In this document: positions 4,927 through 59,213 of the stretch, one piece after another
How positions within the stretch are numbered: the stretch's first letter is position 1
How the letters are laid out: the number at the start of each line of letters is the position of its first letter
Source of the DNA: Thermolongibacillus altinsuensis
GTDB taxonomy: Bacteria > Bacillota > Bacilli > Bacillales > Anoxybacillaceae
DNA: 64,000 nucleotides
NCBI RefSeq assembly: GCF_004341205.1
Contig: NZ_SLUL01000007.1
Coordinates: forward strand, 62,001-126,000
Direction: 5' to 3'
The notes under the pieces: model-generated
The model's database searches: none
Told to the model about the DNA's origin: nothing
The model's input: only the letters and a program-made list of their open reading frames with translations
Made by a program: the position numbers and the translations under genes

Positions 4927-6405
4927 ATGGGGAAATGGAAGCTTAAAGACATATTGTTGTATATCTTGATCGTTTTAGTACCTTCTATATTAGGAAGCAT
5001 TTATCTTATTTACTGGCAAAACGAGCGACAAACAGCCATCGCCAAAGAGGAAACAGCGATGTTTGCTCATATTCATAAAAATGATATTGATCGATTTATT
5101 GCCGAAACAATCACAAGACTAGAAACACTTGCTTTCATCATCGGTGGAAATTTACCGATGAAGCATAAGCAAATGGAATCCATTTTGAACGGTTTACTTG
5201 ACGATGACCAACGCTTTGATCGTCTTTCTTTTTTAGCGGACGAACGCGAGGTAAACGGTTCTAAATATTGGATTAAACTCGCCCGTCAAACAAAACAGAC
5301 CGTCGTTTCGAAAGCACACAAAGAAAACGATAAAATATTGACAACGATTGTTACTCCGATTATTGACTTATCTTCAGAACAGGTTAGCGGTTTTTTAATT
5401 GCGGATGTTCGCCTCGATTACATTAAAAATATTATAAAAGTCGTCAATCCGCATATTTCATTTTGCTTGTACGATTCGGATCGTTCAATTTTGTTTGCAA
5501 CCAAACAAAAACGAAACGAAAAAATCGAAACGATTTCTGTTCACTTAAATAATGTTCCTTGGAAAATTGAAGCATATGTACCACCTTTAGACAAAAAACA
5601 GTTATTGCTGTCTTCTATTCATTGGATTTTGCTCATCGTTGTCGTTACCCACATCATCTTTTTGTTAATCAAATATTGGCTTCTCAAACGGGCAACAATG
5701 TATGAACGAATTCAAAACGAAGCGCAAAAGCTCGAACTTGTCGGAACGCTTGCGGCTAGTACCGCCCATGAAATTCGCAACCCGCTTGCCGGCATTAAAG
5801 GTTTTATTCAGCTTTTAAGCGAAAAACATAAAGATCAAGAATCCCAACTGTATTTTTCCGTCATCGAAAAAGAAATTGCACGCATTAACCAAATCGTAAG
5901 CGAATTTCTAGTTCTTGGAAAACCGACTGCCCAAAAGCTAGAACGATGCGATTTACGTGAAATCGTCACTGAACTGCATCCCATTATTGAATCGCAAGCT
6001 CATTTGCATAATGTCCTTTACACTCTCGACTTTCCGTCGATACCGTTACCGATCTTTTGTTCAAAAGATCATCTAAAACAAGTGATTTTAAATTTGGCAA
6101 AAAACGCGCTCGAATCGATGCCGAAAAATGGGTGGTTGACCATTTCTTTATCAAAAGAAAAAACATGGGCAAAACTGCAAGTGAAAGATACAGGATGCGG
6201 CATTCCAAAAGAAATGCTAGATAAAATTTTTCAACCATTTTTCACGCTCAAAGAAACAGGAACAGGGCTAGGGCTTGTCGTTTGTAAGCGCATCATTGAG
6301 ATGTATGACGGAAAAATTACTATTGACAGCGTTGTTAATAAAGGAACGACGGTAACCGTTTTACTTCCACTCCAACGTGAAGAAAGGGTGGACACTCGTG
6401 AATGA
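4927..6405 (+). CDS. Membrane sensor histidine kinase, KinD-like
   Basis: 492 residues. Membrane segments at about 8-30 and 229-251 enclose an extracytoplasmic sensor of some 200 residues (Cache-like length). The cytoplasmic part has the H-box ASTAHEIRNPLAG with phospho-acceptor His281, then the ATP-binding boxes DTGCGIP and TGTGLGLVVCK. Start ATG 4927 follows GGGAGAAG. No response regulator is adjacent, as for the orphan sporulation kinases that feed Spo0F/Spo0A. In B. subtilis kinD and kinE flank the mtn cluster, and here a KinE-like gene also sits on the other side of mtn, so KinD is the best match. The signal is unknown. Its stop overlaps the start of the ZIP transporter gene. Confidence 0.82.
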   Translation: MGKWKLKDILLYILIVLVPSILGSIYLIYWQNERQTAIAKEETAMFAHIHKNDIDRFIAETITRLETLAFIIGGNLPMKHKQMESILNGLLDDDQRFDRLSFLADEREVNGSKYWIKLARQTKQTVVSKAHKENDKILTTIVTPIIDLSSEQVSGFLIADVRLDYIKNIIKVVNPHISFCLYDSDRSILFATKQKRNEKIETISVHLNNVPWKIEAYVPPLDKKQLLLSSIHWILLIVVVTHIIFLLIKYWLLKRATMYERIQNEAQKLELVGTLAASTAHEIRNPLAGIKGFIQLLSEKHKDQESQLYFSVIEKEIARINQIVSEFLVLGKPTAQKLERCDLREIVTELHPIIESQAHLHNVLYTLDFPSIPLPIFCSKDHLKQVILNLAKNALESMPKNGWLTISLSKEKTWAKLQVKDTGCGIPKEMLDKIFQPFFTLKETGTGLGLVVCKRIIEMYDGKITIDSVVNKGTTVTVLLPLQREERVDTRE

Positions 6406-7129
6406 AATGCTCGTTGGCAGCATATTATCCGCGCTCTCGACAGGAATGGGGGCTATTCCAATTTTATTTTTATCGCGCTCGTTAACTCATCGATGGCGCG
6501 ATATTTTACTAGCTTTTTCCGCCGGCATTATGATGGCGGCATCCATGCTTAGCCTCATCCCTGAATCGCTCGCAAATGGAAATTTTCTTTCACTCGCTGT
6601 CGGACTATTTCTCGGTGTAATCGTATTAACCGTTCTCGAAAAAACAGTACCGCATATCGATTTAGAGCACTCGAAAAAAGGGATTGCTTTCGATGAAAAA
6701 GCATTATTAATCATTGCGGCCATTACGCTACATAACATTCCAGAAGGACTCTCTGTTGGCGTAAGCTACGCTTCGCAAAAAGCAGATACAGGAAGCTTAA
6801 TTGCCTTAGCGATCGGTTTTCAAAATGCGCCTGAAGGATTTCTTGTTGCCCTTTTTCTCTTGAATCAAAATATTTCGAAATGGAGAGCGCTTTTCATTGC
6901 AACATTCACGGGTTCAATTGAACTGATTGCATCCCTTCTTGGCTTTTATTTAACATCGATCATTCAATCGCTCGTCCCTTACGGCTTAGCATTTGCCGCC
7001 GGGGCGATGTTATTCATCATTTATAAGGAACTCATTCCCGAAAGCCATGGAGATGGAAATGAGCGAACGGCAACATATGCCTTTATTCTTGGCTTGCTTT
7101 TCATGATTTTTTTGATCGAAACATGGTAA
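6398..7129 (+). CDS. ZIP-family metal transporter
   Basis: 243-residue membrane protein with about eight hydrophobic segments. The fourth carries LHNIPEGLSVG and the fifth FQNAPEGFLVA, the paired metal-binding helices of ZIP (ZupT-type) importers of zinc and related divalent metals. GTG 6398 is chosen because AAAGGGTGG lies 6 nt upstream; it overlaps the kinase stop codon (6403-6405), implying translational coupling. The coupling with a sensor kinase is unusual and may only reflect compact packing. Direction and metal cannot be read from sequence. Confidence 0.88.
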   Translation: MNEMLVGSILSALSTGMGAIPILFLSRSLTHRWRDILLAFSAGIMMAASMLSLIPESLANGNFLSLAVGLFLGVIVLTVLEKTVPHIDLEHSKKGIAFDEKALLIIAAITLHNIPEGLSVGVSYASQKADTGSLIALAIGFQNAPEGFLVALFLLNQNISKWRALFIATFTGSIELIASLLGFYLTSIIQSLVPYGLAFAAGAMLFIIYKELIPESHGDGNERTATYAFILGLLFMIFLIETW

Positions 7130-7144
7130 AGGACGGAACATAGA

Positions 7145-8002
7145 ATGAAATACTATTTATTGCTACTAATTACCAGCGCTTTATGGGGGGGAAACTTTGT
7201 CGCTGGTAAATTTCTTGTTGGACACGCCTCTCCTCTCGCTTTAACATCGATGCGCTGGCTTTTAGCTATTCTTTGTCTCATTCCAATCGTGTTATGGAAA
7301 GAACGAACGTTACGATTGAAAAAAGAGGCCTTTGCTTCGCTGCTGGCAATGGGGCTGACAGGCGTAATTTTTTTTAATGTGCTTATGTTTCAAGCGCTTC
7401 AATACACATCGGCGGATAACGTCGGATTGCTTTCAACACTAAACCCAATCGCGATTGCCGTCGTTTCTTACTTTTTTTATCATGAAACGCTAGCAAAACG
7501 ACAATGGCTAGCGATGTTTATTTCCCTCCTCGGTGTCATGATCGTCATGACACACGGACACATCGAAACATTGCTTCGCCTTCATTTTAACATTGGCGAT
7601 TTATTTATGTTAGCAGCTGTCCTCGTTTGGGGATTATATTCTGCGTTTGCGAAAAAAGCGATGAAATGGCATTCCCCTCTCGAAGCCACATTTTGGTCTG
7701 GAGTGTTTGGAACGATCGGGATGCTTCCGTTTACTCTTTCATCGTTTTCCATCAAAACAATCGATGCTTCATTTGCCTTTGCTTTATTGTATACAAGCTT
7801 TGGAGCAACCGTATTGGCAATGATTTTTTGGAACATTGGCGTCCAAAAAATCGGCGGAACGAAATCGGGAATTTTTTTAAACTTTAATCCTCTGTTTACA
7901 GCTCTTTTCGCTTATGTATGGTTAGGAGAACAAATGAACGGCGCACAGCTCATTGGCAGCATCATTACCATCAGCGGCGTTGTTTTATTTGCAAAAAAAT
8001 AG
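7145..8002 (+). CDS. DMT-superfamily (EamA) transporter
   Basis: 285 residues with ten predicted membrane segments in two EamA repeats: ALWGGNFVAGKF opens the first and VWGLYSAFAKKA the second. Such proteins usually export amino acids or metabolites; the substrate is unknown. The start ATG 7145 has AAAGGACGG upstream and follows the ZIP gene by 15 bp, so kinase, ZIP and this gene probably form one operon ending at the terminator at 7999-8029. Confidence 0.85.
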   Translation: MKYYLLLLITSALWGGNFVAGKFLVGHASPLALTSMRWLLAILCLIPIVLWKERTLRLKKEAFASLLAMGLTGVIFFNVLMFQALQYTSADNVGLLSTLNPIAIAVVSYFFYHETLAKRQWLAMFISLLGVMIVMTHGHIETLLRLHFNIGDLFMLAAVLVWGLYSAFAKKAMKWHSPLEATFWSGVFGTIGMLPFTLSSFSIKTIDASFAFALLYTSFGATVLAMIFWNIGVQKIGGTKSGIFLNFNPLFTALFAYVWLGEQMNGAQLIGSIITISGVVLFAKK

Positions 8003-8029
8003 AAGGCATAAAGCCTTCTATTTTTTTAT
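7999..8029. terminator. Bidirectional terminator between the EamA gene and mtnD
   Basis: ATAGAAGGC-ATAAA-GCCTTCTAT followed by a T-run on the plus strand and, read the other way, by A/T-rich sequence next to the mtnD stop. It overlaps the EamA stop codon. Confidence 0.85.
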
Positions 8030-8559
8030 GTATTTGCTTCTTCTTTTTCATAAATCGGCACCCAACCTTCTGTCGTCACGAAAATACGAACAGCAACCAC
8101 TTTTCGATCTTCTTGCAATGTAAAATAATGGCGTGTATATTCCGGAACAGAGATTAAATCACCAGGATTTAATTCGACATCGAAAAACTTTCCGTCTTTT
8201 CCTTGAATCGCAAATACTCCGTGGCCGCTCACAATGAAACGCACTTCATCATCCGTATGGTGATGCTCTTTTTTAAAGTTTTCAAGCAGCTGTTCAAGGT
8301 TTGGTGTTTGCTCGGATAGGGCGACAACATCTTGTGCTCGATAGCCGCGACGTGCGGAAATGTCCGCAATTTCCTCTTTAAACGTTTCAAGAATTTCGTT
8401 TTTTTCTTCATCCGTTAATACGTATTTCTCGCGTAAATGCTCAGGAAGTTTCGCAATGTCCCATTTTTCGTAAATAACCCCTTGCTCTTGTAAAAATTGA
8501 ATCACCTCTTGCTCTTTTTCAATCGTTTCGTTTGTTTCATGAAAGCGAATGATAGCCAT
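8026..8559 (-). CDS. mtnD: Acireductone dioxygenase
   Basis: 177-residue cupin enzyme of methionine salvage. It cleaves acireductone with O2; the Fe2+ form gives formate and the keto acid 2-oxo-4-methylthiobutanoate, the Ni2+ form an off-pathway product. Metal ligands are visible in the cupin motif: a run of three His before TDDE, VSGHG, and TRHYF. AAAGGAGG lies ahead of the ATG. It is the last gene of mtnW-mtnX-mtnB-mtnD, the order known from B. subtilis, and its keto acid product is the substrate of MtnE encoded upstream. Confidence 0.95.
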   Translation of the reverse strand: MAIIRFHETNETIEKEQEVIQFLQEQGVIYEKWDIAKLPEHLREKYVLTDEEKNEILETFKEEIADISARRGYRAQDVVALSEQTPNLEQLLENFKKEHHHTDDEVRFIVSGHGVFAIQGKDGKFFDVELNPGDLISVPEYTRHYFTLQEDRKVVAVRIFVTTEGWVPIYEKEEANT

Positions 8560-8582
8560 CCTTTTTCCTCCTTTAATGTATG

Positions 8583-45444: not shown

Positions 45445-45472
45445 AAAAAAGCTGACTACTAGAGTCAGCTTT
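45445..45472 (-). terminator. Terminator of the ferritin gene
   Basis: AAGCTGACT-ACTAG-AGTCAGCTT with an A/T run that reads as T's on the minus strand; starts at the stop codon. Confidence 0.85.
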
Positions 45473-45977
45473 ACATTTGTTCTGGCGTAAACGTCCGTTT
45501 CGCCAATTCATTGTCCAACATAAATAGCGAGTTGTTGTCATTTTCAATTCGTTTTAACTTTTGAATAAGCGTATCAAACATCGCTTCTTCTTCGACTTGT
45601 TCATCAATGAACCACTTTAAGAAGTTGATCGTCGCATGCTCGCGTTCATCAAACGCTAGATCCGACAGCTTATAAATCCGTTTCGTGACCTCTTTTTCAT
45701 GAGCAAGCGCTTTTTCAAAGCAATCGCGAATCGATGTAAATTCATTGTTCGGTGACGGGAAGCCAGTGATGATGACACGCTTTCCTAACGCGTTAATAAA
45801 ATTATAAAATTTCATCGCATGAAAACGCTCTTCTTCTGCTTGCACTAAGAAAAAGTTGGCAAACCCGTCTAATCCTTCGGCTGAACAATACGCCGCCATC
45901 GCCATATACGCATGTGCTGAATAAAATTCAAAATTCATTTGCTCATTTAATCCATTCAACAATTTCTCGCTTAACAT
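45471..45977 (-). CDS. Ferritin
   Basis: 168-residue non-haem ferritin storing iron as ferric mineral in a 24-subunit shell. Ferroxidase residues are visible in NEQMNFEFYSAHAYMAM, VQAEEERFHAMKFYNFI and FIDEQVEEEAMFDTLI. ATG 45977 follows GAGGTG by about 8 nt. The last 30 residues (KLKRI, NDNN, LFM, KRTFTP) form the tail beyond the helix bundle and match the end of the RsgI-like protein encoded at 55402 in 22 of 30 positions. Confidence 0.93.
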   Translation of the reverse strand: MLSEKLLNGLNEQMNFEFYSAHAYMAMAAYCSAEGLDGFANFFLVQAEEERFHAMKFYNFINALGKRVIITGFPSPNNEFTSIRDCFEKALAHEKEVTKRIYKLSDLAFDEREHATINFLKWFIDEQVEEEAMFDTLIQKLKRIENDNNSLFMLDNELAKRTFTPEQM

Positions 45978-46056
45978 GTTCCACATCACCTCATTTCTCT
46001 TATGAAATTTTATTATAACATGGTTGAACTTTCCTCACACAATTATGCTTCCATTC

Positions 46057-55044: not shown

Positions 55045-55254
55045 ATGGCTAGAAGCAGCAATAAATTGCTTGTGCCTGGGATTGAACAAGCACTTGATCA
55101 AATCAAATATGAAATTGCACAAGAATTTGGCGTACAGTTAGGTTCTGATACAGTCGCTCGCGCTAACGGTTCTGTCGGGGGCGAAATCACAAAACGGTTA
55201 GTAGCACAGGCCCAAAGTCAACTTGCTGGAACTGCTCGTACTCAGTCTAAATAA
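55045..55254 (+). CDS. Alpha/beta-type small acid-soluble spore protein
   Basis: 69 residues. The family signatures are complete: [23 protein letters not shown] with the germination-protease cleavage context, and [19 protein letters not shown]. These proteins coat spore DNA and protect it from UV and heat. AAGGAGG precedes the ATG. It is made in the forespore under SigG in known species; I could not fix a SigG promoter by eye. Confidence 0.96.
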
Positions 55255-55401: not shown

Positions 55402-56631
55402 TTATTCCTCTTGTTTTGGTGTGAATGTTCGTTTCTCAAATTCGTTATCAGGCATAAATAAAGCGTTGTTATCATTTTGAATCCGTTTTAATTTTAGTGC
55501 ATCGTTTTCTCGCTCATATTCTTTTTCATGTTCTCGCTCTATTCTCTGTTGTTCATCATCATTTCCATTTCTATTCTTTTGTGCCCATCTTTCTTTTTCC
55601 CTCTCTTTTCTCCCTTTTCTCTCTTTTCTTTCTTCTCTCTCTTCTCTATCTTCCCGCTTTTTTTCTTGTATTCCCTTCCTTTTTAGCTCTTGTTTTTCTT
55701 GATTTTCTTCTTCAACGAAATAGTTGGAAGGAACTTGTTTTTTCATTTTTGCTTGTTCTTCTTTTTCAAGTTGTGGCTGTTCTTGCTGCTTCGGCTTTTG
55801 TTGAACTTTTTGTTTTCTTTCAAGTTGTGGCTGCTCTTGCTGTTTCGACTCTTGTTCTTTTTTGAGCAGGTTACTTGATGGAGGAAGATGGTTATCATTA
55901 CTTTCATTTTGCTCTCTGTTCACAGGTACATTTTCTTTCTGATTTTGGCTACTTTCGTTATTTTTTATTTTATTTTCTTTTTCGATTAGCCTCATGTATT
56001 TTCCAGTTGTAAATCCTTTTTCTATCGCCTCTTTTCTCAACTCTAACGTACTTTTCTTGGTTGTAACAACGATATCTTGTTTTTGATAAGAGCGTTTTAC
56101 TTCATCTAATTCTTTCGCTAGCCGCTGCGAAGAAGAGCGATTCGCTTTTTTTTCAACGGTGGTAATCAGCACTTCCTCCCCTTTGTGCAAATAACCGTTT
56201 TTCATACTCAATTCAATAATTTTCTTTGTAACGTCAACAAACTTTTTTTCTTTCCAGTCAGAAAGATTGGCAACCAATTTTTTGCCATCTTGATTATAGC
56301 CCCTGATGTTGATCACTTCTAACTTTTTATTGATCATTAATTCAATGCTTGGGTTGATATCGATCGACAAATACGCATACACTTCATTCGAAGTAACGCT
56401 CGAAAACAAACTTAATACCAGGAGACATACTGCGGCGATGCTCGCGACCGCTAATTTAAATGAAGAAAAATGAAAAAACGGTTTTTTTGTTTTTTGGCGC
56501 CGCATTGGAATTCCTTCAATTTCCTGTCCAATTTGATAAGATCCTTCTTTCTTTATTTGAACAAATTCACCGTCAGGGGTTAATAGCGTGACAAAATCAT
56601 CATCAACCTCTAATACAATTCCTTTTTTCAT
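55402..56631 (-). CDS. rsgI: RsgI-type anti-sigma-I factor with ferritin-like C-terminal tail
   Basis: 409 residues. The N-terminal cytoplasmic RsgI domain (about 1-50) binds SigI. One membrane segment (about 53-77) follows, then the conserved extracellular part VYAYLSIDINPSIELMINKKLEVI. From about 230 to 375 the chain is a Gln/Glu/Lys/Arg-rich low-complexity stalk. It ends in a segment (KLKRI, NDNN, LFM, DNE, KRTFTP) matching the ferritin tail in 22 of 30 residues. Known RsgI proteins end in sensory or low-complexity regions; a ferritin-like end is odd. ATG overlaps the sigI stop by one base. Confidence 0.9.
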   Translation of the reverse strand: MKKGIVLEVDDDFVTLLTPDGEFVQIKKEGSYQIGQEIEGIPMRRQKTKKPFFHFSSFKLAVASIAAVCLLVLSLFSSVTSNEVYAYLSIDINPSIELMINKKLEVINIRGYNQDGKKLVANLSDWKEKKFVDVTKKIIELSMKNGYLHKGEEVLITTVEKKANRSSSQRLAKELDEVKRSYQKQDIVVTTKKSTLELRKEAIEKGFTTGKYMRLIEKENKIKNNESSQNQKENVPVNREQNESNDNHLPPSSNLLKKEQESKQQEQPQLERKQKVQQKPKQQEQPQLEKEEQAKMKKQVPSNYFVEEENQEKQELKRKGIQEKKREDREEREERKERKGRKEREKERWAQKNRNGNDDEQQRIEREHEKEYERENDALKLKRIQNDNNALFMPDNEFEKRTFTPKQEE

Positions 56632-57362
56632 TATGAAAGCACCCCTTTTATGTAATCTCTTAAATAGACGTAATCACCAGCTAAAACAATGGTGATCGCA
56701 ATAATATATTTACGGTTTCTCTCTAATGTTTTGCGACTTACATGAACCTTGCTTTGCAGCTGTTTAATTGGCAATTGTTTTTTCTCAAAAAGTTTTGCAC
56801 ATAGTTCGCGGTCTTCAGCTAACAACTTAGCAATTTTAATCGCATTGAGACGGGCATCAGAATGTTTTGGAGATTGTTCAACCAGCTCTTGAAAACTAAT
56901 CCCAAACTCTTGTAACACTTTTTGATAATGAATAATTTCCTCTTTTCGCTCTTCCTGCTCCATTTGCTTATAAAATTCATCCATTGATAATCTCGTGTCT
57001 AAATACGTTTGTGCCGCTTCTTCTTCCTCTTGTTCTTCTAAAGAAACGGTTTTGACTTTTGCTTCTTTGCGAATATAATCAATCACTCTTCTTTTTATAA
57101 TCAGTTCAGAAAAAGCAATAAAAGAACCACCTTTATTAACTGCATATTTTTCAATTGCTTCATTAAATGCGATTAAACCTATGCTAAATTCATCATCCTC
57201 TTCACTAATAAATCGTTTACAGACACTTGAAACCGTTTTTGCGATAAACGGTTTGTATTCATGAATCAATCTATTTTGTAATGCTGTATTTCCTTTTTGG
57301 ATTTCAGCAATCATATGTTCGATTGGTTTCTCTTTTTTAAACTTAAATAATATGCTGAGCAT
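56631..57362 (-). CDS. sigI: RNA polymerase sigma factor SigI
   Basis: 243 residues. NRLIHEYKPFIAKTVSSVCKR and DDEFSIGLIAFNEAIEKY form region 2; FSELIIKRRVIDYIRKEAK is also typical; the C-terminal SKVHVSRKTLERNRKYIIAITIVLAGDY is the SigI-specific DNA-binding part. ATG 57362 is taken since GAGGTG lies 6 nt upstream. It is co-transcribed with its anti-sigma gene. SigI responds to heat and envelope stress in B. subtilis. Its own promoter region shows a SigI-like pattern, indicating autoregulation. Confidence 0.93.
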   Translation of the reverse strand: MLSILFKFKKEKPIEHMIAEIQKGNTALQNRLIHEYKPFIAKTVSSVCKRFISEEDDEFSIGLIAFNEAIEKYAVNKGGSFIAFSELIIKRRVIDYIRKEAKVKTVSLEEQEEEEAAQTYLDTRLSMDEFYKQMEQEERKEEIIHYQKVLQEFGISFQELVEQSPKHSDARLNAIKIAKLLAEDRELCAKLFEKKQLPIKQLQSKVHVSRKTLERNRKYIIAITIVLAGDYVYLRDYIKGVLS

Positions 57363-57412
57363 CAACTTCACCTCATTGTGAAACAGACAAAAACTTACCC
57401 TTCCAAGATATC

Positions 57413-57833: not shown

Positions 57834-59213
57834 ATGAAGTTTAACAAAAACATCCGCAATGTGTTAGCAACTGGAGTCATCACAGCCACACTCGCTCTAC
57901 CACTTGGAACAAGCAATGTATACGCAAGTGAGAATGAATCCGTGACACAAACGAACAACACCACCATTGTCGAAGAAAACAAAACAGCAAACACTACAAA
58001 AACAATGGAAGCATCTCCAGAAAGCACGGTAACTGAGACTGCTCCAGAAGCTTCAACTGTTGACAATGAAAAAGCAGAATCTTCTTTAGATGAAACGAAG
58101 GGATCAGAACAAAAAACAGAAACAGGTATAGAGGATACCAATAAAAAAATGCCGTCCCTTCTTCCGGGTGACTTCTTTTACTTCTTAAAAACGATTACCG
58201 AAAAAATTAAATTGGCGTTAACATTTGATGATGTTGAAAAAGCAGAGTTGCTTGCAAATTTTGCTCAAAAGCACATCGCTGAGGCAGAAGCATTACTTGC
58301 TCAAGGCGAGGAGGAATTAGCTAAAGAGGTTCTTGAAAAAGCGTTAGAGCAACAAGAACTCGCTATGGACAAGTATGAAGAGACGCAACAAGAAAAAACT
58401 GCGAAAGAACAAGATCCTGTAAGTGATGAAGCAACTGGAGAAGCAACTAAAGAAGGAACAGATAAACAAACAAATCATTCAGCTGCTGAAATAGATTCAA
58501 TCCGTCAACAATTAGAGGAAAAATTGTCCCAAAACATTTTAGCTTTACAAGCGGTTTTAGCGAAAATCGAAAACCCTAAAGCAAAAGAAGCACTCGCAAA
58601 AAACATTGCGAAAGCGCAAGAAAAGCTAGAAAAGAAAATTAATAAAAAGCTAGCAAAACTTGAAAATAAAGAGCTTAAAGCTGAGAAAAAAATCGATGAG
58701 CTAGAAGAAAAACTAGCATCTGGTGAGATTAGCCAAGAAGAGTACGAAAAAGCATTAACAAGAATTCAAAATCATCTAGCGAATGAACAAGAAAAAGCCG
58801 TTGAAGAAACAACTAAAAAAATCGATAAAGTAACAAAAGAGATGCAAGAAAAAATTTCTGATAAACAAGAAAAAGAAGAAGCAAAACAGTTAGATAGCGG
58901 TAATCATAACGATAGCCGTTATAACGAAGCAAAAAAAGCCGCGGAACTCAAACGTGAAGAAATGAAAAAGGCTGCAGAACTCAAACGTGAAGAAATGAAA
59001 AAGGCTGCGGAACTCAAACGTGAAGAAATGAAAAAAGCCGTGGAACTCAAACGTGAAGAAATGAAAAAAGCTGCGGAACTCAAACGTGAAGAATGGAAAA
59101 AGGCCGCAGAACTCAAACGCGAAGAAGCGAAAAAAGTAGCAGAACTCAAACGTGAAGAAGCGAAAAAAGCAGAAAAACGCGAACATGAAGAAAAGGAAAA
59201 AGAGGAGAATTAA
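57834..59213 (+). CDS. Secreted DUF5667-like protein with 11-residue C-terminal repeats
   Basis: 459 residues. Signal peptide with likely cleavage near 32 (SNVYAS). A Thr/Glu-rich linker follows, then LLPGDFFYFLKTITEKIKLALTFDDVEKAELLANFAQKHIAEAE at about 105-150, which matches the DUF5667 pattern, then long charged helices, and seven 11-residue repeats of the KKAAELKREEM type. No SLH or LPXTG anchor. It is probably a long helical cell-surface or wall protein. It is divergent from sigI and shares its promoter pattern, so it is likely a SigI target. Ribosome site AGGAGG. Function unknown. Confidence 0.82.
   Translation: MKFNKNIRNVLATGVITATLALPLGTSNVYASENESVTQTNNTTIVEENKTANTTKTMEASPESTVTETAPEASTVDNEKAESSLDETKGSEQKTETGIEDTNKKMPSLLPGDFFYFLKTITEKIKLALTFDDVEKAELLANFAQKHIAEAEALLAQGEEELAKEVLEKALEQQELAMDKYEETQQEKTAKEQDPVSDEATGEATKEGTDKQTNHSAAEIDSIRQQLEEKLSQNILALQAVLAKIENPKAKEALAKNIAKAQEKLEKKINKKLAKLENKELKAEKKIDELEEKLASGEISQEEYEKALTRIQNHLANEQEKAVEETTKKIDKVTKEMQEKISDKQEKEEAKQLDSGNHNDSRYNEAKKAAELKREEMKKAAELKREEMKKAAELKREEMKKAVELKREEMKKAAELKREEWKKAAELKREEAKKVAELKREEAKKAEKREHEEKEKEEN
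58932..59162 (+). repeat. Seven tandem 33-bp repeats in the DUF5667-like gene
   Basis: Units encode KKAAELKREEM with changes only at residues 3-4 and 11 (M, W or A). An eighth, degenerate unit (KKAEKREHEEK) follows. In frame, so copy number could vary without frameshift. Confidence 0.93.

Follow-up and report, generated by a model that had tools for sequence, protein, structure and literature searches.

A ferritin-derived C-terminus on an RsgI-like anti-sigma factor of Thermolongibacillus altinsuensis, probably the leftover of a deleted neighbouring ferritin gene

Results and Discussion

The rsgI locus of T. altinsuensis

We have analyzed a window of 64,000 nucleotides, the whole stretch of DNA considered here, from the draft genome of T. 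altinsuensis (2.90 Mb, 39 contigs). The window has a G+C content of 40.5% and lies inside a contig of 147 kb. On its minus strand, positions 55402..56631 hold an rsgI-like anti-sigma factor gene encoding 409 amino acids, the 3' end of which has been joined to the stub of a ferritin gene. RsgI_N (PF12791) matched residues 1-40 with 60.3 bits against a Pfam cut-off of 25, and RsgI_M (PF23750, E 2e-35), the central periplasmic domain, matched residues 85-213 (55993..56379, minus strand) with 122.7 bits against a cut-off of 25.3. The latter domain contains a DINP motif, in which N93 and P94 are invariant among six aligned RsgI sequences, and these two residues are the predicted Asn-Pro self-cleavage site. 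A helix of residues 62-75 (56407..56448, minus strand), placed by AlphaFold2 with low confidence, lies in a hydrophobic and presumably membrane-spanning stretch. The sigI-like sigma factor gene, with a Sigma70_r2 match, adjoins rsgI at 56631..57371 on the minus strand, and its product is 83-84% identical to the SigI proteins adjoining rsgI in A. vitaminiphilus and A. calidus. A SASP alpha/beta gene (PF00269) at 55045..55254 on the plus strand would, judging from synteny, mark the far border of a lost ferritin gene.

Based on the domains, the Asn-Pro motif and the adjacent sigI, the product of 55402-56631 is classed as an RsgI anti-sigma-I factor, with inhibition of SigI as its predicted activity. 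It shares its domains, the DINP motif, the neighbouring sigI and a long polar C-terminal stalk with the RsgI anti-sigma-I factors. It differs from the other RsgI loci compared in that its last 26 homologous residues are ferritin-derived. Beyond residue 215, 82% of its residues are polar or charged (KREDQNHSGP), compared with 72-90% in 39 other RsgI loci, 36 of which are distinct and three of which are second copies. The C-termini differ widely among these relatives, and a ferritin-like end was absent from all 39, in agreement with the preliminary description, which knew of no other RsgI with such an end. This set leaves aside 13 further RsgI-like places and the loci L077 and L078, which are second copies of those in G009 and G012. 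In the AlphaFold2 model of RsgI (three sequences, mean pLDDT 67.5), a long helix extends up to residue 390, and residues 392-409 have a pLDDT below 50, so that the tail end is predicted to be unstructured.

According to PMC12203970, the C-terminal part of RsgI is extracellular, and its periplasmic domain cleaves itself. PMC10202637 describes wall defects as being sensed by the extracellular part of B. subtilis RsgI, and Brunet et al. 2022, by its title, reports that intrinsically disordered regions are required. The remark in the preliminary description that the RsgI C-terminus should be outside the membrane and ferritin in the cytoplasm is sound, and this difference in location argues against a ferritin-related role of the tail.

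The C-terminal tail and its likeness to ferritin

The ferritin-derived tail comprises residues 380-405 (KLKRIQNDNNALFMPDNEFEKRTFTP; 55417..55494, minus strand) and is followed by KQEE and the stop codon. An intact ferritin gene (PF00210) lies elsewhere in the window at 45471..45989 on the minus strand. Upstream of it, a gene for a TerC-family membrane protein (PF03741; 46057..46848, minus strand) serves as the marker of this second locus. The preliminary description had reported that the ends of the two proteins are alike, and we found both open reading frames as it gave them. In the alignment that begins at KLKRI, RsgI and this TerC-linked ferritin share 22 of 29 residues, together with 68 of 90 nucleotides when the ferritin stop codon is included. 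By codon position, the identity is 27/30 at the second, 23/30 at the first and 18/30 at the third. The Smith-Waterman score of RsgI against this ferritin was 121, compared with a maximum of 74 and a mean of 37.8 in 1000 shuffles of RsgI. When the tail was searched against six frames of the whole genome, it matched RsgI itself (E 1e-16), the ferritin (E 2.5e-10) and, without significance, two other places at E 0.43 and 0.76.

With the ferritin as a query in six frames and E up to 1, the rsgI locus matched ferritin residues 126-166 only. The locus therefore holds a stub, and we reject a frame error that would conceal a complete ferritin. PF00210 was absent from RsgI at E up to 0.001, and the fused RsgI lacks a four-helix ferritin-like domain. 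What it carries corresponds to the C-terminal end of a bacterial ferritin (PF00210), including the short helix E, with 24 of 26 residues matching the rsgI-linked ferritin copy of A. calidus and A. vitaminiphilus. We take the tail to be the helix E region. Since AlphaFold2 modelled the ferritin poorly, from three sequences and with a mean pLDDT of 56, this placing is based on general knowledge and on an alignment to a PDB ferritin. Ferritins keep their core, whereas the tail is without it, and P394 and E399 of the tail are found in 0 of 19 and 0 of 11 ferritins in two alignments.

Occurrence of the tail in other genomes

In 41 genomes of the family, the tail was matched 19 times, in 18 of the genomes, and apart from the match in RsgI these were all in open frames of 168-192 amino acids. 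The A. calidus version of the tail, searched in 397 genomes of the order drawn evenly from a larger group, gave 86 matches in 85 genomes, which lie in frames of 57-213 amino acids except for the present RsgI, whose frame there is of 423. We judge the other matches among the order genomes to be ferritins by size and similarity, one of them in a frame of only 57 amino acids (G196). No second tail match in an open frame longer than 213 amino acids was found in either the 41 family or the 397 order genomes. Nearly all the frames are ferritin-sized, and these results leave a sorting or binding motif shared with other proteins unsupported. As for a cargo peptide of an encapsulin, a search for the shell protein (PF04454) gave no match in this genome, and its control matched three of 14 named genomes; with no shell gene found, we ruled out this candidate. 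In the literature, none of the titles listed concerned a link between RsgI and ferritin, and both words occurred together in one paper, on a cellulosome genome.

Gene order at the rsgI locus in relatives

The nearest RsgI matches, as well as the best matches of the neighbouring symporter, are in A. calidus and A. vitaminiphilus. Both genomes show the order APC-sigI-rsgI-ftn-SASP-MaoC with an intact ferritin gene on the rsgI strand. In these close relatives, both parents of the fusion are adjacent and on the same strand. The ferritin open frame starts 40-54 nt past the rsgI stop, and the sequence between the two genes can be read as containing a terminator hairpin and a -10 box. In T. altinsuensis, the remainder of the ferritin is absent at the rsgI locus, and SASP is the next gene after rsgI. 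Only 172 nt separate the rsgI stop from the SASP match, compared with 715-721 nt in the two relatives.

The order rsgI-ftn-SASP is also present in G059, a genome of another family. There, at locus L038, rsgI lies near 7842-8561 and the ferritin at 6017-6520 on the minus strand, and the RsgI stalk has many KKDKWDHENKKD-like repeats. In addition, APC, ferritin and SASP follow each other without an intervening sigI-rsgI in all seven g8 loci examined. On the other hand, most relatives are without a ferritin at this place. Among 27 rsgI loci compared, two of which belong to A. caldiproteolyticus (G004), a ferritin between rsgI and SASP was found only in that species, in decayed form. The ancestral order is thus inferred from A. 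calidus, A. vitaminiphilus, G059 and the g8 loci.

The decayed copy of A. caldiproteolyticus (L076:9092-9800) lies between rsgI and SASP and is broken up by stops and frame changes, its ferritin fragments occupying more than one frame. It is an independent loss of ferritin at the same place. In the g3 genomes (e.g., G010 and G032), the RsgI query matched only ferritin ends in eight of nine and nothing in G029, so that sigI-rsgI seems to be lost in this group.

The ferritin from which the tail was derived

The intact ferritin at 45471 is probably not the parent of the tail. Over the 26 codons from KLKRI to FTP, the tail agrees with the rsgI-linked ferritin found in A. calidus and A. vitaminiphilus at 67 of 78 nucleotides and 24 of 26 residues, compared with 60 of 78 nucleotides and 21 of 26 residues for the ferritin at 45471. 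The remaining 16 of the 19 ferritins compared differ from it at 14-24 of the 78 nucleotides. Three residues separate the ferritins of A. calidus and A. vitaminiphilus from the TerC-linked ones (IQ/IE, NA/NS and EF/EL), and in all three the tail is of the A. calidus and A. vitaminiphilus kind. This split is imperfect among the SASP-linked ferritins, as G025 has EL and G059 has IE.

The ferritin at 45471 itself is 91-93% identical in amino acids to eight g3 ferritins and groups with the g3 ferritins in the ferritin DNA tree with a support of 99/96. The terC-ftn pair is found at seven of eight g3 loci, and in the g3 genome G020 the two genes are about 1.7 kb apart. In the same tree, the clade of the tail with the A. 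calidus and A. vitaminiphilus ferritins has a weak support of 74/74. A tree forced to unite the tail and the ferritin at 45471 in one group is worse by 11.2 log-likelihood units (p-AU 0.068), which falls short of a formal rejection, and every branch of a tree built from the 78 nucleotides was poorly supported. Since position, identity and diagnostic residues agree, the parent was very probably a rsgI-linked ferritin that is now lost. Accordingly, the likeness to the ferritin at 45471 that had first been noticed is real, but it is general to ferritins and stronger to the lost copy.

A proposed deletion and fusion

In all likelihood, the tail is the in-place stub of a deleted neighbouring ferritin, a molecular leftover that probably has no new function. 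The preliminary description had proposed that a fragment of a ferritin gene became joined to the RsgI stalk, which is right in kind, but it named the wrong donor and route. The ancestor would have had the order sigI-rsgI-ftn-SASP at this locus, together with a second ferritin behind terC that was already present or was gained. This TerC-linked ferritin may have covered iron storage, making the loss tolerable. A deletion would then have taken away the DNA between a point in the charged and variable 3' region of rsgI and about codon 140 of the ferritin, including the rsgI stop and the spacer. As the ferritin is gone and its last codons are in frame in rsgI, the stub appears to have been fused to rsgI through the loss of about 490 bp or more. 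By the relatives' maps, the smallest such deletion measures at least 486-487 nt, to which any codons lost from rsgI would have to be added, and it would have removed about 140 ferritin codons. The ferritin frame would have been retained by chance, at odds of about one in three, and the last 26 conserved ferritin codons would now be read as the extracellular C-terminus of RsgI. The fused end is presumably made, and tolerated because the RsgI stalk past residue 215 is variable and polar. The order of these events, as well as the absence of a ferritin-related role of the tail, is inferred.

The exact base of the fusion is not fixable within a junction zone at 55495..55539 (minus strand), which we delimited by in-register identity to the relatives' ferritin. 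Counted in steps of 15 nucleotides, the matches number 11-14 per step in the tail. Upstream of KLKRI they drop to 7-8 over three steps and then to 4-5, and this upstream stretch of RsgI is rich in Glu and Lys codons. Past the RsgI stop codon, we looked for homology of the DNA to the ferritin 3' flank and found none, which, together with the many relatives lacking a ferritin between rsgI and SASP, counts to some degree against the stub of a lost ferritin, as do the weak clade and the p-AU value given above.

The loss of a stop codon gives a protein an extra C-terminal stretch. In this respect, the present case resembles the new C-termini that are the subject of the paper "The Recent De Novo Origin of Protein C-Termini" (PMC4494051), likewise a C-terminal gain. 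The stretch gained in RsgI differs in that it is left over from a known gene next door and is still read in the frame of that gene.

Age of the fusion and selection on the tail

The tail differs from the A. calidus ferritin by nine synonymous and two replacement differences. If all 11 had arisen neutrally after the fusion, about 7.3 changed residues would be expected, and two or fewer were obtained in none of 5000 simulations. Therefore, we are left with a recent fusion or with selection on the tail. The counts mean that most of the change took place under selection, on the simplest reading at a time when the sequence belonged to a ferritin gene. With a tail evolving neutrally ever since, the fusion would fall roughly within the most recent 6% (0.7-20%) of the period after the divergence from A. 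calidus, a rough date that rests on two events and on nearly saturated silent sites. Selection acting after the fusion would leave the same pattern. The two replacements are L394P and A399E, and all 19 ferritins compared have L and A at these sites. The sites are not absolutely fixed, as the ferritin of G038, a genome of another family in the alignment of 11 ferritins, has M and S there. The 41 family genomes searched included no further genome of this genus.

Alternative explanations

The stub left by the deletion might have been kept for a use, as a new binding end of the extracellular stalk or as a cap or protection of the C-terminus, and we consider this unlikely. The excess of synonymous over replacement differences and the intact frame and stop would suit such a use, but a recent fusion yields the same ratio of nine to two. 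Moreover, both replacements fall at sites common to all 19 ferritins (though not to G038), the tail end is predicted to be unstructured, and RsgI ends vary widely in relatives. That selection has kept a function of the tail, for example as a wall- or partner-binding end created in one deletion step, seems quite unlikely. The tail would also resemble the ferritin at 45471 if a partial duplicate of this gene had been inserted behind rsgI, a route for which the 22 shared residues of 29 and the p-AU of the joint clade leave room. Although the tree alone allows it, synteny speaks against it, as a ferritin already occupies this position in the genomes with the nearest RsgI, and this rsgI-linked ferritin is closer to the tail in DNA and protein and has the three diagnostic residues in common with it. 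We give this route very little credence.

In a draft genome of 39 contigs, the junction of rsgI and the ferritin stub could be an artefact of assembly or sequencing. However, 18 of the 78 nucleotides of the tail differ from the single other ferritin found in the genome, and no further part of a second ferritin was found, so that the tail is not a collapsed copy. With the window lying inside a contig of 147 kb as well, we regard an artefact as highly improbable. The proposal that unrelated proteins share the tail as a binding or sorting peptide that can be reused is hardly credible: its other matches lie in frames of 168-192 amino acids in the family and 57-213 in the order, no encapsulin was found in this genome, and two residues shared by all 19 ferritins compared are lost from it.

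Among these readings, we prefer the stub of the lost rsgI-linked ferritin. Read in this way, the locus offers a readable case of a deletion giving a membrane sensor a new end, in which both parents and the likely older arrangement are visible. The latter is seen in two relatives, with an independent decay of the ferritin at the same place in a third. It also agrees with the view that the end of the RsgI stalk is under little constraint in its sequence. The case would be an evolutionary accident and not a new system. If it were true that the tail is under selection across the genus, a new sensor part would have been made in one step.

Other features of the neighbourhood

The APC gene adjoining sigI in A. 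vitaminiphilus (L035:3210-4616) aligns as two separated pieces. In A. calidus, there is an extra APC fragment beside a full copy, and G013 and G019 have two full APC copies near the ferritin. Beside sigI in the window, positions 57834-59213 encode a repeat-rich, exported-looking protein with tandem AAELKREEMKK-like units. Relatives of this protein, whose family is presumably DUF5667, are encoded about 0.6-4.5 kb from sigI in A. vitaminiphilus, G059 and G040.
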